A stretch of DNA of 64,000 nucleotides. It comes from Mariprofundus sp. (GTDB taxonomy: Bacteria; Pseudomonadota; Zetaproteobacteria; Mariprofundales; Mariprofundaceae). Shown piece by piece: positions 10,028 through 52,290 of this stretch. Every line of letters begins with the position of its first letter. The stretch's first letter is position 1. Below the pieces are notes generated by a model. The model did not search any database. It saw only the letters and a list, made by a program, of their open reading frames with translations, and was not told the origin of the DNA. The position numbers and the translations under genes are program-made. The stretch lies in the NCBI GenBank assembly GCA_021772775.1, contig JAJFLH010000040.1, positions 1-64,000 on the forward strand. Reading direction: 5' to 3'.

Positions 10028-10833
10028 AACGATTACTTCTTTTACTGCTGATCATGTCTGGTACAATGCTGTTTTCCACAGCAGCCATGACCGCACCATT
10101 GCGTATTCTGGCTTTGACACCGCATGCATGTGAAATGCTCTATGCCATTGGGGCAGGCCCCCAGATCGTTGGTGCGGTCTCCTATTGTGATTATCCAGCC
10201 GAAGCCAATAAGGTTCCTCGGGTCGGCAGTTATGTGCGCATCAATGCTGAGTCAGCACTTCGCCTGAAACCTGATGTAGCGATTGTTCGAGAGCATAATG
10301 TGGTTGGCATCGAAGTTTTGAAAAAGATGGGTGTCAAAATCATCGTATCTAATCCCGTTAGTTTTGAAACTATCTTTGATGATATTAATCTGTTGGGAGA
10401 AATCTCTGGCCATAAAGCAGAAGCTGAAGTTTTAACGCAGCAGTTGAATGATCGTTTGCAACGGATTCGTGATAAGAAACGCTCCGAGAGCACTGTGTTT
10501 TATGAAGTTTGGCATGACCCTATCATCACAGCCGGTGGTCCGAGTTTTATCAACGATCTCATTGATGAGGCAGGTGGAAAAAATGTATTTTCGGATATCA
10601 ATATCGAGACACCACATGTGAATATTGAATCAGTGGTCAGGGCAAATCCATCCCTGATTGTGATTCCACTGGAAAAGAGAGATATCGAAGAACGTAGGGC
10701 CTTTTGGGAAAAGTGGTTAGGGAAAGGGCGAGTAAGCTTCGTCGCCATCAATCCAGACCTATTGCATCGCCCCGGCCCGCGATTGTTGGATGGCCTAGAG
10801 CTATTGCAGCAGGCGCTGCAGGAGCAGCAATGA
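10024..10833 (+). CDS. btuF: Cobalamin-type periplasmic substrate-binding protein
   Basis: The 269-residue protein has a signal peptide (about residues 1-23, ending TAAMTA). It then has the class III (BtuF/FhuD) fold with ILALTPHACEMLYAIGA, VSYCDYPAEA and VWHDPIITAGGPSFINDLI, which resemble BtuF motifs. It would pass corrinoids from the periplasm to the BtuC-BtuD permease encoded about 8 kb downstream in the same gene run. Its start overlaps tonB by four bases (ATGA). Some family members bind heme or siderophores. Context argues for corrinoids. Confidence 0.88.
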   Translation: MKRLLLLLLIMSGTMLFSTAAMTAPLRILALTPHACEMLYAIGAGPQIVGAVSYCDYPAEANKVPRVGSYVRINAESALRLKPDVAIVREHNVVGIEVLKKMGVKIIVSNPVSFETIFDDINLLGEISGHKAEAEVLTQQLNDRLQRIRDKKRSESTVFYEVWHDPIITAGGPSFINDLIDEAGGKNVFSDINIETPHVNIESVVRANPSLIVIPLEKRDIEERRAFWEKWLGKGRVSFVAINPDLLHRPGPRLLDGLELLQQALQEQQ

Positions 10834-11504
10834 ATAATCAAATCGAGCAGCCGAGCTTCTCTGAAGAAGAGCGTGATATCCTTTATAAGGTCGTGTATGC
10901 GCGTCGGGATATGCGTCACTTTACTCAGGGCAGTGTGGATAAGGTTGTATTGTCACGTATTTTGGCAGCAGGGCATGCCGCTCCATCGGTCGGTTTTATG
11001 CAGCCATGGCGTTTTATCCGCATCACTAAAACCGAACTCAGAGAGCAGCTCATCACACTGGTTGAAGCAGAAAAACAGCGCACATCGGATCAGATGGATG
11101 AGCGCAAAGCCGAATTCATGCGTCTCAAAGTTGAAGGGCTGCGTGATTGTGCCGAACTAATCGCTGTTGTATTGGCTCCTGATGATGGCACAGTGTTTGG
11201 TCGCCGTACCATGCCTGAAGAGATGGCGCTCTGCTCCACTTCATGTGCGATTCAAAATATGTGGTTGGCGGCACGCTCTGAAAACTTAGGCATGGGTTGG
11301 GTCTCATTTTTTGAGCCAGCTGATGTGGCATCGTTATTGAGCTGCCCCGAAGGCAGTAAACCGATTGCACTGCTCTGTCTCGGGCCAGTAAAAGTATTTT
11401 ATGATAAACCCATGCTCGAATCAGAAGGCTGGCGCGAGCGCGAAGCGATGGGTTCGATTTTAGCAGAAGATCAATATCCTTTAGCCACAGATACACGGGG
11501 ATAA
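10830..11504 (+). CDS. bluB: 5,6-dimethylbenzimidazole synthase
   Basis: The 224-residue flavodestructase has the nitroreductase fold and converts reduced FMN and O2 to 5,6-dimethylbenzimidazole, the lower ligand of B12. RRDMRHF (about residues 28-34), SVGFMQPWRFI, MALCSTSCAIQNMWLAAR and GMGWVSFF are family motifs. The start at 10830 overlaps the btuF stop (ATGA); a longer frame from 10704 only shadows btuF. The last residues, ATDTRG and the stop, are encoded by the left inverted repeat of the inserted GxxExxY element. The native C-terminus has therefore been replaced, probably without loss of function. Confidence 0.92.
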   Translation: MNNQIEQPSFSEEERDILYKVVYARRDMRHFTQGSVDKVVLSRILAAGHAAPSVGFMQPWRFIRITKTELREQLITLVEAEKQRTSDQMDERKAEFMRLKVEGLRDCAELIAVVLAPDDGTVFGRRTMPEEMALCSTSCAIQNMWLAARSENLGMGWVSFFEPADVASLLSCPEGSKPIALLCLGPVKVFYDKPMLESEGWREREAMGSILAEDQYPLATDTRG

Positions 11505-11513
11505 ACACAGATG
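11483..11513 (+). repeat. Left inverted repeat of GxxExxY element
   Basis: AGCCACAGATACACGGGGAT followed by AAACACAGATG is the near-perfect reverse complement of 12078-12106. It overlaps the 3' end of bluB. Repeats of this AACACAGAT/CACGGATAA type are known to bracket GxxExxY genes in many genomes. Confidence 0.85.
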
Positions 11514-11595
11514 AAGTCAAAATCTATTATAAATGTCGGATTAATGGTGAAAATGCTGCTTGTGTCCTTACCTGTTGGTTACAGAGCTTGCGCCT

Positions 11596-11964
11596 GTGAA
11601 TATTGATGAAATGACTGAAAAAACTATTGGGTGTACTTGCACGGTAAGTAATGAATTGGGAGCAGGGTTCCTTGAAAAAGTGCATGAGAATGTTTTAGTC
11701 ATTGAGCTGATGAAGCAGGGGCTACACGTTGAGCAACAAAAGCCTGTATTGGTGACTTACAGTGGCGAAATCGTTGGAGAACATGCTGTAGATCTGTTTG
11801 TTGAGGATTGTGTTATTATCGAATTGAAAGCAGTCCAAGCATTGGACAATACTCATCAGGCCCAGTTATTGAATTACTTGAAAGCTATGGGAGTCCAAAC
11901 AGGCCTGTTACTAAACTTTGAAACCTCTAAAGTGGCTATAAAACGCACGGCTTTTGGGAATTAG
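11596..11964 (+). CDS. GxxExxY-family PD-(D/E)xK-like protein
   Basis: The roughly 122-residue protein has the N-terminal VNIDEMTEKTIGCTCTV pattern, the signature region GAGFLEKVHENVL, and a nuclease-like core, AVDLFVEDCVIIELKAV (Asp then ExK). It matches the small GxxExxY family (PDDEXK_3). The namesake Tyr is His here (GFLEKVH). The GTG at 11596 is preferred because family members begin with (M)NIDE. An upstream TTG at 11560 would add residues without a match, and the ribosome site is weak in both cases. The gene lies alone between two inverted repeats within the corrinoid run. Its function is unknown. A selfish or transposed element is an inference. Confidence 0.75.
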   Translation: MNIDEMTEKTIGCTCTVSNELGAGFLEKVHENVLVIELMKQGLHVEQQKPVLVTYSGEIVGEHAVDLFVEDCVIIELKAVQALDNTHQAQLLNYLKAMGVQTGLLLNFETSKVAIKRTAFGN

Positions 11965-12074
11965 CACAGATGATACCCCAAGGTACCCTCACTTTTGTAA
12001 ATACAATTCACTTCGATGCAGATATTTTGAATCCTTTGAGGATGAGGTAACTATGTTGATTTTTCCCTTCCAGA

Positions 12075-12106
12075 TTTATCTGTGTTTATCCGTGTCCATC
12101 TGTGGC
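12075..12106 (-). repeat. Right inverted repeat of GxxExxY element
   Basis: ATCTGTGTTTATCCGTGTCC followed by ATCTGTGGCT is the inverted copy of 11483-11513. Together the two arms delimit an element of about 620 bp ending just before cobQ. The 110 bases between the gene and this arm hold nothing else that I can identify. Confidence 0.85.
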
Positions 12107-12126
12107 TATAAAAGGTTTGTCTATTC

Positions 12127-13560
12127 ATGAAAGCATTAATGATTCAAGGAACCGCCTCTGGTGTTGGTAAGTCAGTGCTGGTGGCGGGGCTGTGTCGTCT
12201 GTTGGCTAGAAACGGTGTCTCCGTAGCTCCATTTAAACCACAGAATATGAGCAATAATGCGGCGGTTACGATAGATGGCGGTGAGATTGGCCGCGCACAG
12301 GCTTTGCAGGCGCTGGCCTGTGGTATTGAGCCGACTGTCCATATGAATCCGGTGCTAATTAAACCTGAAGCAGATGAAAAGGCGCAGCTGGTTGTTCAGG
12401 GCAGGGTGGTTGGACAATTGCATGCCAAACGCTTTCGTGAAGATCGAATTGGCTGGATGGATACCGTACTGGAATCTTTTGCACAGCTGCAGTCAGAGTA
12501 TGATGTGGTCATCATCGAAGGGGCCGGTTCCCCATCGGAACCGAATCTGCGCGAGGGTGATATCGCCAATATGGGTTTTGCCGAAGCAGCCGATGTGCCG
12601 GTCTGGCTGGTCGGTGATATTGATTGTGGTGGTGTGTTTGCAGCCCTCAAAGGCTCTCTCGATATTCTCTCTCTATCGGAGCAGGCCAGAGTTGAAGCGC
12701 TGTTAATCAATAGATTCCGCGGTAATTTAACCCTGCTTGATGATGCACTGGCCTGGTTAGAAGAGACAACGCATAAAACCGTTGCTGGTGTCATTCCTTA
12801 TCTCGCTCTTGAACTGCCTGAAGAGGATAGTCCATTTCGCCATATCTCTGATAATACGCATAACAAGACCCAACTCAATATTGCAGTCATCGCTTATCCG
12901 CGTCTCTCCAACCATGATGATATCGACCCACTAGCATCTGAAGCAGGGATCAACCTGCGCTTTGTTCGCGCAGCCGATCAGTTGCAGCCAGCTGACCTTA
13001 TCATTCTACCTGGCTCCAAGCATGTGGCTTCAGACCTGCATTGGTTACGAGAGAATGGTTTCGTCACTGTTTTAGAAAAACATCTGCGTTATGGCGGCAA
13101 GCTACTCGGCATCTGTGGCGGTATGCAGATGCTAGGGGCTGCAATTGAAGATGATGGTATTGAAGGTGGCAGTGCAAAGGGACTGGGCTGGTTATCGCTC
13201 TCCACCACGATGCTATCTGAGAAAACCTTAAGACAAGTCGATCAGCCGGCCCCAAGGTTCGGCGGCCAGCGCGTAACAGGCTATGAAATTCATCATGGTC
13301 AATCTGATAGCGAAAACAGAGACCTATTTCCATTTGCTGCTTGCTCAGATGATCGACAGGTCTGGGGCACTTATCTGCATGGCCTGTTTGAGCAGGGTGA
13401 GTTTCGCCAAGCTTGGCTAAAAGAGATTGGTTTCAGCAATAGCGATGGCAAAGATCAACATCAACGCACCATGGCATCACTGAATCTTCTAGCTGATGCC
13501 TTGGAAGTAGCTATAACCCCTGAGCTACTGGCACCGCTGTTGCGGCACAAGTTGAAATGA
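12127..13560 (+). CDS. cobQ: Cobyric acid synthase
   Basis: The 477-residue glutamine-dependent amidotransferase amidates four side chains of adenosylcobyrinic a,c-diamide. The N-terminal ATPase domain (about 1-230) has IQGTASGVGKSVLVAGLCRL, PFKPQNMSNN and EGAGSPSEPNL. The C-terminal class I glutaminase-like domain (about 250-440) has the nucleophile motif LGICGGMQMLG and GTYLHGLF. The length is normal for CobQ (about 480). It opens the anabolic block, and its stop overlaps cbiB by four bases. Confidence 0.95.
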   Translation: MKALMIQGTASGVGKSVLVAGLCRLLARNGVSVAPFKPQNMSNNAAVTIDGGEIGRAQALQALACGIEPTVHMNPVLIKPEADEKAQLVVQGRVVGQLHAKRFREDRIGWMDTVLESFAQLQSEYDVVIIEGAGSPSEPNLREGDIANMGFAEAADVPVWLVGDIDCGGVFAALKGSLDILSLSEQARVEALLINRFRGNLTLLDDALAWLEETTHKTVAGVIPYLALELPEEDSPFRHISDNTHNKTQLNIAVIAYPRLSNHDDIDPLASEAGINLRFVRAADQLQPADLIILPGSKHVASDLHWLRENGFVTVLEKHLRYGGKLLGICGGMQMLGAAIEDDGIEGGSAKGLGWLSLSTTMLSEKTLRQVDQPAPRFGGQRVTGYEIHHGQSDSENRDLFPFAACSDDRQVWGTYLHGLFEQGEFRQAWLKEIGFSNSDGKDQHQRTMASLNLLADALEVAITPELLAPLLRHKLK

Positions 13561-30884: not shown

Positions 30885-31068
30885 TTCACCGCAGAGTTAC
30901 GCAAAGTAAAGTCATATGTTTAATGATTGTTTGTAACGGAAACTCAGTCATGTTATATCTGTATATGATCTTTTGAGCCATTGATTGTGAGAAGCAAGAT
31001 TGAGTTGAATAGCTTCTTCTTTCCTTGTCCATGCCTTCCTCAGCGTAACTTTCGTACTCTGCGGTAAA
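30885..31068. repeat. CCGCAGAGT inverted-repeat locus 1
   Basis: TTCACCGCAGAGTTACGCAA at the left (about 30887-30906) and the reverse-oriented TACTCTGCGGTAAAT at about 31055-31069 bracket some 150 bases with no gene. The right arm also keeps a GCGTAACTTTCG segment related to the left arm. The same repeat type recurs at 52167-52290. In many genomes such arms flank GxxExxY genes, so this may be a gene-less remnant. Confidence 0.65.
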
Positions 31069-52159: not shown

Positions 52160-52166
52160 TATTCTT

Positions 52167-52290
52167 TCACCGCAGAGTAACGCAAAGGAAAAACAGTCAA
52201 TATAATTGCAGAGAAACCGGAAAGTTTTTCAACTTCAATCCAGGCCAGAATATTATTTTGCATATACTCTGCGAAACTCTGCGGTAAGAT
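52167..52290. repeat. CCGCAGAGT inverted-repeat locus 2, between hisA and hisF
   Basis: TTCACCGCAGAGTAACGCAA (about 52167-52186) and ATACTCTGCGAAACTCTGCGG (inverted, about 52264-52283) bracket roughly 80 bases without a gene. The arms share ACCGCAGAGT followed by CGCA-AG. They form the same family as the locus at 30885-31068. Its placement interrupts the otherwise tightly packed his operon. Confidence 0.75.

Follow-up and report, generated by a model that had tools for sequence, protein, structure and literature searches.

The small GxxExxY gene that lies between bluB and cobQ in the window (the whole 64,000-nucleotide stretch of Mariprofundus sp. DNA that was analysed) is bracketed by inverted arrays of a short unit, and gene and arrays together are probably a minimal homing-like mobile element, in which one RecB/Cas4-fold nuclease recognises its own arms. 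The element is inserted at a site that is empty in relatives, elements of this kind arrive horizontally, their arms and protein have co-evolved, and gene-less copies of the matching arm class are dispersed through genomes. The protein would bind and cut DNA, and the cut would drive the movement. The whole element is about 0.6 kb long and encodes a single protein of about 120-135 amino acids.

The features of the element and its neighbours are collected in Table 1. The earlier note had reported inverted arms of about 30 bp around the gene; the pair found is 34 nt long and 85% complementary, with 559 nt between the arms. The pair scores 21.5; 1000 dinucleotide shuffles of the flanks on both sides gave at most 15.0, and a chance inverted repeat was thereby ruled out. 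Each arm itself consists of about three ~10-bp units in tandem. These unit arrays had been missed in the earlier note, as had their covariation with the protein and the occurrence of the element across phyla. A model of this arm class (R1, described below) matched the left arm at 11481-11513 (33.5 bits) and the right arm at 12077-12108 (36.1 bits). The assembly is a draft of 40 contigs, which would leave some room for an artefact, but with the shuffles as they are and the same architecture in independent genomes, an artefact or chance inverted repeat is hardly credible. The longest frame of the gene, 11560-11964, begins with TTG; GTG at 11596 or ATG at 11611 is the likelier start. The right arm is separated from the cobQ ATG by 18 nt (TATAAAAGG...), much like the spacer of the insert that a relative, G007, carries here, and the AAAAGG stretch in this spacer could be a ribosome-binding site for cobQ. 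Elsewhere in the window two gene-less pairs of AG-class arms face inward (30885-31068 and 52166-52286), both weak and decayed.

Table 1. Features of the element and its neighbours (window positions)
Feature	Position	Strand	Evidence or content
bluB (5,6-dimethylbenzimidazole synthase)	10830..11504	+	TIGR02476, 228.5 bits (cut-off 150)
Left arm, GAT class	11482..11515	+	three units: CACAGAT, CACGGGGAT, CACAGAT
GxxExxY / PDDEXK_3 nuclease-fold gene	11596..11964	+	profile scores, predicted structure
Predicted active-site residues	11674..11877	+	E39 (11674), D78 (11791), E88 (11821)
Predicted active-site residues, continued		+	K90 (11827), Q102 (11863), Y106 (11875)
Right arm, GAT class, inverted	12075..12108	-	inward reading: TAGCCACAGATG GACACGGATAA ACACAGATAAA
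Right spacer with AAAAGG stretch	12109..12126	+	direct reading
cobQ (cobyric acid synthase), intact, downstream	12127..13560	+	NF001989, 588.8 bits

The comparison of bluB-cobQ with relatives that the earlier note had proposed was made on 61 genomes; bluB was present in 28 of them, in 29 places, and 25 junctions were read. Seven are empty, two hold a GxxExxY element (the window and G007), six have arms or half-arms without the gene and ten have a different gene order. In the empty junctions the bluB stop and the cobQ ATG overlap as ATGA; bluB there ends YPL, YPA or YPQ (in one case GYGA), with its TGA overlapping the ATG. In the window it ends ...YPL-ATDTRG-TAA, with the arm contributing ATDTRG and TAA; the left arm does supply exactly what the earlier note had ascribed to it, the final six codons of bluB and its stop. 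The seven empty junctions among the 25 also support the idea of a transposed unit in a packed corrinoid operon. Arms at the same place in all relatives and across genera had been named as evidence against such a transposition: empty relatives exist, and the junction is nevertheless shared by two further bluB-cobQ elements in other genera (G258 and G230).

The nearest relative of the window at this junction has no insert. In the bluB tree the window pairs with the empty G009 (99), as it does in the cobQ tree (95; 14 of 16 loci, L045 being too short and L041 giving no match), and since both flanks pair with an empty relative, the window insert is best read, from these trees, as a gain in the window lineage. 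The four GxxExxY proteins found at bluB-cobQ form one clade (99/92) in a tree of 43 rows. A single clade forced on their four bluB genes was rejected (dlnL 148, p 2e-62), as was one forced on the four cobQ genes (dlnL 84, p 9e-5); a clade of the bluB of the window and G007 alone cost 83 log units (p 7e-10), and the corresponding cobQ pair was not rejected (p 0.088). The discordance between the protein and bluB trees is so strong that it speaks for more than one arrival of the element at the bluB-cobQ junction and against long residence there.

At one locus (L212) the start of cobQ occurs a second time, as a diverged stretch of about 35 nt between two right arms to the right of the GxxExxY gene; in this one case it is as if donor flank had been carried in by an earlier insertion. 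The locus downstream of bluB in G013 (L041) consists of arms only, the left arm having about five or six consecutive CACAGATGAA/CGCAGATGAA units, and the gene downstream is apparently other than cobQ.

A second junction, trpD-trpC, was read in 30 relatives: 15 have the element, one an arm pair alone, two short remnants and 12 a stop/start overlap. The TrpC proteins of G006 and G011 are 95% identical and their GxxExxY proteins 59%, that of G011 being closer to those of G019 and G016. G033 and G108 belong to two genera; their GxxExxY genes are about 92% identical (88-96% in stretches of 50 nt), against about 68% for the trp flanks. At trpD-trpC too there is repeated arrival, including replacement and transfer between genera. 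A Methanosarcinales archaeon and a Brocadiaceae bacterium have genes with 70-82% nucleotide identity between flanks that are unrelated. The trpD-trpC element has TGA in front and ATGA behind, a pattern that gene-sparing selection alone would yield, and no clean target-site duplication was found other than the doubling of the ATGA overlap, which every gene-sparing insertion requires. Relatives of the window protein are rare on plasmids (8 of 72,556 records) and were found in none of 50,697 phage records, which rules out phage or plasmid as the usual vehicle.

Two further observations concern the trp junction. An AG-class GxxExxY element in another phylum (L168, Verrucomicrobia) lies just upstream of a trpC homologue, which makes the trp junction a possible target outside the family too. 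At the trpD-trpC loci of G022 (L079) and G007 (L298) the inverted repeat reaches about 27 nt past the arms into the end of trpD and is mirrored in the spacer ahead of trpC, as if the end of the element resembled its target.

Alternatively, the gene might be an old, vertically inherited operon gene with a host function, its patchiness being due to loss and the conflict between trees to recombination of the flanks. The same junctions are occupied across genera, and the gene is under strong purifying selection (pN/pS 0.03-0.31 in 12 pairs), both of which would fit. This is very unlikely, since the flanks in the window go with the empty G009 and the protein with elements of other species and genera, similarity is confined to the gene where flanks have diverged, and close relatives hold different element lineages at one junction.

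By profile score the window protein is a clear member of TIGR04256 (135.9 bits, cut-off 35) and of PF13366 PDDEXK_3 (132.5 bits, cut-off 22). Membership follows from these scores and not from residue 42, where, as the earlier note had seen, the tyrosine of the family name is histidine (codon 11683); it is Tyr in 99 of 100 aligned proteins and His in the window protein only, which retains G36 and E39. The family assignment itself only names the protein. The E, D, ExK and QxxxY residues are conserved in the GxxExxY family, and all of the predicted catalytic residues (E39, D78, E88-x-K90 and Q102xxxY106) are present in the window protein; the D, ExK and QxxxY among them we take to be the motifs of RecB/Cas4-type PD-(D/E)XK nucleases, to whose fold they would correspond. 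An AlphaFold model built from 100 family sequences had a pLDDT of 93.7, and its best Foldseek match was 4ic1 (the Cas4 SSO0001; E 2.8e-4, TMq 0.57), followed by lambda exonuclease, LHK-exonuclease and MGME1, with tRNA-splicing endonucleases lower. The profile searched by sequence against the PDB gave a weak match, again to 4ic1 (E 0.93). The window protein is thus predicted to be a small RecB/Cas4-fold PD-(D/E)XK nuclease.

Arms of this kind accompany the gene well beyond the window. The named loci are the best 80 of 547 confirmed in a scan of species genomes, one of which (L136) was too short for the arm test. An arm pair scoring at least 14 surrounds the gene at 63 of the remaining 79, compared with 26 of 1282 control windows of matching geometry from the same loci, which rules out that the arms are generic DNA found around any gene; in further loci arms were visible by eye in 17 of 19. 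A typical arm has three copies of a short unit, and the elements are found in archaea as well as in many bacterial phyla. Arms and unit classes were set by alignment and custom regular expressions. The GAT class, to which the window belongs, has CRCNGAT three times with a 10-bp period, about one turn of DNA (27 arms aligned); the AG class has CRCNRAG at a spacing of about 8-10 bp, and rarer units end in GAAT, GGAA or GAAA. Classes could be given to 85 of 95 clear-arm loci (AG 41, GAT 33, GAAT 5, GGAA 4, GAAA 2). The GAT and AG lineages each extend over many phyla, with the archaea within GAT. The GxxExxY start codon is often within the left arm.

The upstream stop is often no more than 10 nt from the arm, and both neighbours of the element run in its direction at 62 of 95 loci and both against it at one, in a rough scan of 90-codon open frames rather than annotated genes. 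The elements therefore lie in line within operon gaps; ordinary operon genes would often score in the same way. A long RNA stem around a gene is found in rRNA intervening sequences, and the arms could likewise form a transcript stem, with a protein that processes or regulates the RNA and relocation by ordinary recombination. The direction of the elements and the complementary arms close after the upstream stop are consistent with such a stem. The complementarity is, however, given automatically by inverted arrays of one unit, and the nearest folds are those of DNA exonucleases and nucleases (Cas4, lambda exonuclease), with tRNA-splicing endonucleases ranking lower. By itself an RNA role also leaves the co-evolution of protein and unit and the transfer into one and the same junction unexplained, and we regard it as quite unlikely. 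None of 12 loci tested had an Rfam match, which ruled out a known RNA family.

The relation between arms and protein was examined on a set of loci from which L158 (stops in the matched stretch), L068 (the same as L123), L087 (in-frame stop), L003 (a fragment), L203 (contig end) and L089 (below cut-off) were omitted. This left 120 loci, of which the 95 with an arm score of at least 14 were used, class being assigned to 85; before the comparison nine arm pairs were turned over so as to read on their purine-rich strand. For the protein tree each matched stretch was shortened by its first 12 residues, because these can overlap arm DNA. On this tree the unit classes require 8 changes, against a mean of 35.4 when shuffled (0 of 200 shuffles as low), so that the unit sequence follows the lineage of the protein and not that of the host. 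Arm similarity is correlated with protein identity over the 95 loci (Mantel r 0.449, 0 of 2000 permutations as high), over the 62 named loci (r=0.33, or 0.333; 0/2000) and among pairs of the named set below 55% identity (r 0.214, 0/2000). DNA just outside the arms or within the right arm has little or no correlation with the protein, with the exception of the outer left flank of the named loci (r 0.046, 21 of 500 permutations as high), and shared DNA ancestry was thus ruled out as the source of the link. A correlation that is present in the arms and little or not at all in adjoining DNA gives the strongest hint of a protein that reads the units. The window's own genome has three GxxExxY classes with one gene each (GAT in the window, GAAT on contig C26 and an AG fragment on C40), all with matching arms.

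Arm copies without a gene were sought with two class models, R1 built from 27 of 42 GAT arms and R2 from 34 of the 46 AG arms examined (62 in all), irregular or near-duplicate arms being excluded by eye. The genome-wide search that the earlier note had suggested returned dozens of copies in the window's own genome: 40 and 50 matches to the two models, forming 29 inward pairs, no outward pairs and one same-strand pair, nearly all of them gene-less. The two arms are of a single class in 28 of the 29 inward pairs, and the pairs are 75-215 bp long; a single longer one, of 393 bp, encloses the C40 gene fragment. The sole mixed pair is gene-less and combines a GAT arm with an AG arm (L014, G000:C16:33232-33356). 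Among the 61 relatives, up to 66 GAT arms and at least 115 AG arms were counted in a genome.

The number of arms in a genome is related to the class of its gene; genome class labels in these tests were set by hand. Within the genus (23 genomes), GAT arms are commoner with a GAT gene or remnant (P=0.0017) and AG arms with an AG gene (P=0.0048), kinship being ignored, and the cross-class tests gave P 0.14 and 0.23. In the family and order (41 genomes) the matching classes gave P 9e-5 and 6e-5, again with kinship ignored, and the cross-class tests were weakly positive (P 0.016 and 0.040). Among 24 genomes of other groups, those with a GAT gene have a median of 50.5 GAT arms and those with an AG gene one of 4.5 (P=0.003); these comprise 12 GAT-gene genomes (an archaeon among them with 50 GAT arms) and 12 AG-gene genomes, two of which have 36 and 100, G418 having 100 GAT arms despite its AG gene. 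The GxxExxY gene was not found in G040 (75 AG arms) or G003 (16 AG arms), and G022 has 46 GAT arms with no recognised GAT gene, one of its genes lying at a contig end.

In G022 (L305-L324) gene-less AG arm pairs, nearly identical to one another, are embedded in a larger dispersed repeat of about 200 bp, which also carries a second palindrome (CTTGTACATTTTGCACAAG) and beyond which the flanks are unique. The arm pair alone is therefore not always the spreading unit. In many copies the conserved repeat continues about 40 nt to the left and 60 nt to the right past the arms, and because it exceeds the arms these copies are unusable for defining element ends or target duplications.

Such copies raise the question of whether the arm pairs are REP/MITE-like repeats that other machinery, slippage or recombination moves, with the GxxExxY gene as cargo. 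Gene copies are far fewer than gene-less pairs, the pairs of G022 sit within composite repeats, and arms occur in genomes where no gene was found. Moreover, relatives have solo genes of the four-helix-bundle family TIGR02436 (L093-L107, L112-L114) between inverted arms of short tandem units of quite different types (GTGAGAT, GGGGTGA, GCAGTAG and GATGAAG); 12 of these 18 loci score at least 14, against none of 18 control windows, and GxxExxY-type units were found in none of the 18. Repeat arms around solo genes are thus not peculiar to the GxxExxY nuclease, and the TIGR02436 genes appear to belong to a parallel family of elements whose protein is unrelated. A cargo gene would, however, predict neither that the unit class tracks the protein tree at divergences at which the neighbouring DNA is random nor that arm numbers are linked to the gene class of a genome, and this account is unlikely.

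Among known systems REPIN/RAYT (PMC3116915) and homing genes come closest, the first of which fails on the enzyme. RAYT is an HUH (Y1) transposase, whereas the window nuclease is of the PD-(D/E)XK type, with PDDEXK_3 as its sole Pfam match. The likeness lies in a small gene with palindromic repeats, many gene-less intergenic copies and a matching repeat class. Dispersed gene-less palindromic copies are shared, as the 29 inward and 0 outward pairs of the window's genome illustrate; unlike that system, the arms here are three-unit arrays, the unit class is tied to the protein lineage across phyla and GxxExxY elements arrive repeatedly at the same operon junctions.

Homing endonuclease genes are patchy and are acquired horizontally at one exact site, and PD-(D/E)XK homing enzymes exist. 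Presence and absence at the same site and horizontal arrival are likewise found for GxxExxY. In contrast to homing genes, the element lies outside any intron or intein, has its own inverted arms and is accompanied by gene-less copies genome-wide. The ends of Tn7-like elements and fold-back transposons consist of several inverted tandem protein-binding repeats, and GxxExxY element ends are also inverted tandem arrays, but the window element has no DDE transposase, is only ~0.6 kb and encodes its single protein. By its enzyme it is not a classical IS either: no DDE transposase lies between the window arms, where the sole family match is PDDEXK_3. The 23S rRNA intervening sequences have complementary ends and, as small elements with one gene, are a further likeness. 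That with the S23 gene is described as a small selfish one-gene element (PMC4990558). It lies in rRNA genes with S23, whereas the window element lies at bluB-cobQ with PDDEXK_3, and the arms of the TIGR02436 genes here are made of other units.

A link to reverse transcriptases was dropped; in the passage concerned, GxxExxY serves only as the label of a gene beside a CRISPR-type reverse transcriptase. Arms, gene-less copies or mobility of GxxExxY were not found in the literature searched, in which subscription journals were thinly covered; the element would be new, and earlier notice elsewhere is possible.

The element ends in inverted arrays of about three short iteron-like units each, and in the mechanism that we favour its one gene would give a small RecB/Cas4-fold PD-(D/E)XK nuclease. 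The protein would bind the arrayed units of its own arms and nick or cut the arms or the junction DNA, and host recombination or repair would then copy the element, or a gene-less arm pair of its class, into a new or formerly occupied junction. The same tight operon junctions (bluB-cobQ and trpD-trpC) would in this way be entered again and again, as in homing, and the arms-only alleles (at bluB-cobQ, and in G030 at trp) may be sites that are re-filled.

More broadly, we consider the chances about even that these elements constitute an undescribed class, spread over many bacterial phyla and archaea, in which a Cas4/RecB-fold nuclease is combined with iteron-like inverted arms, the nuclease evolves together with the code of its arms, so that a given lineage would mobilise no arms but those of its class, homing into arms and operon junctions re-fills the same sites across species, and tens to more than 100 gene-less copies accumulate per genome. 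If this is true, a common unexplained small gene and many intergenic repeats would be the two halves of one system, and a transposase-free route of DNA mobility that depends on a single nuclease would be added to those known. Nature would also provide many nucleases together with their matching target arrays, so that a recognition code might be read from them and tested directly, and the repeat hot spots at operon junctions would have a concrete cause.
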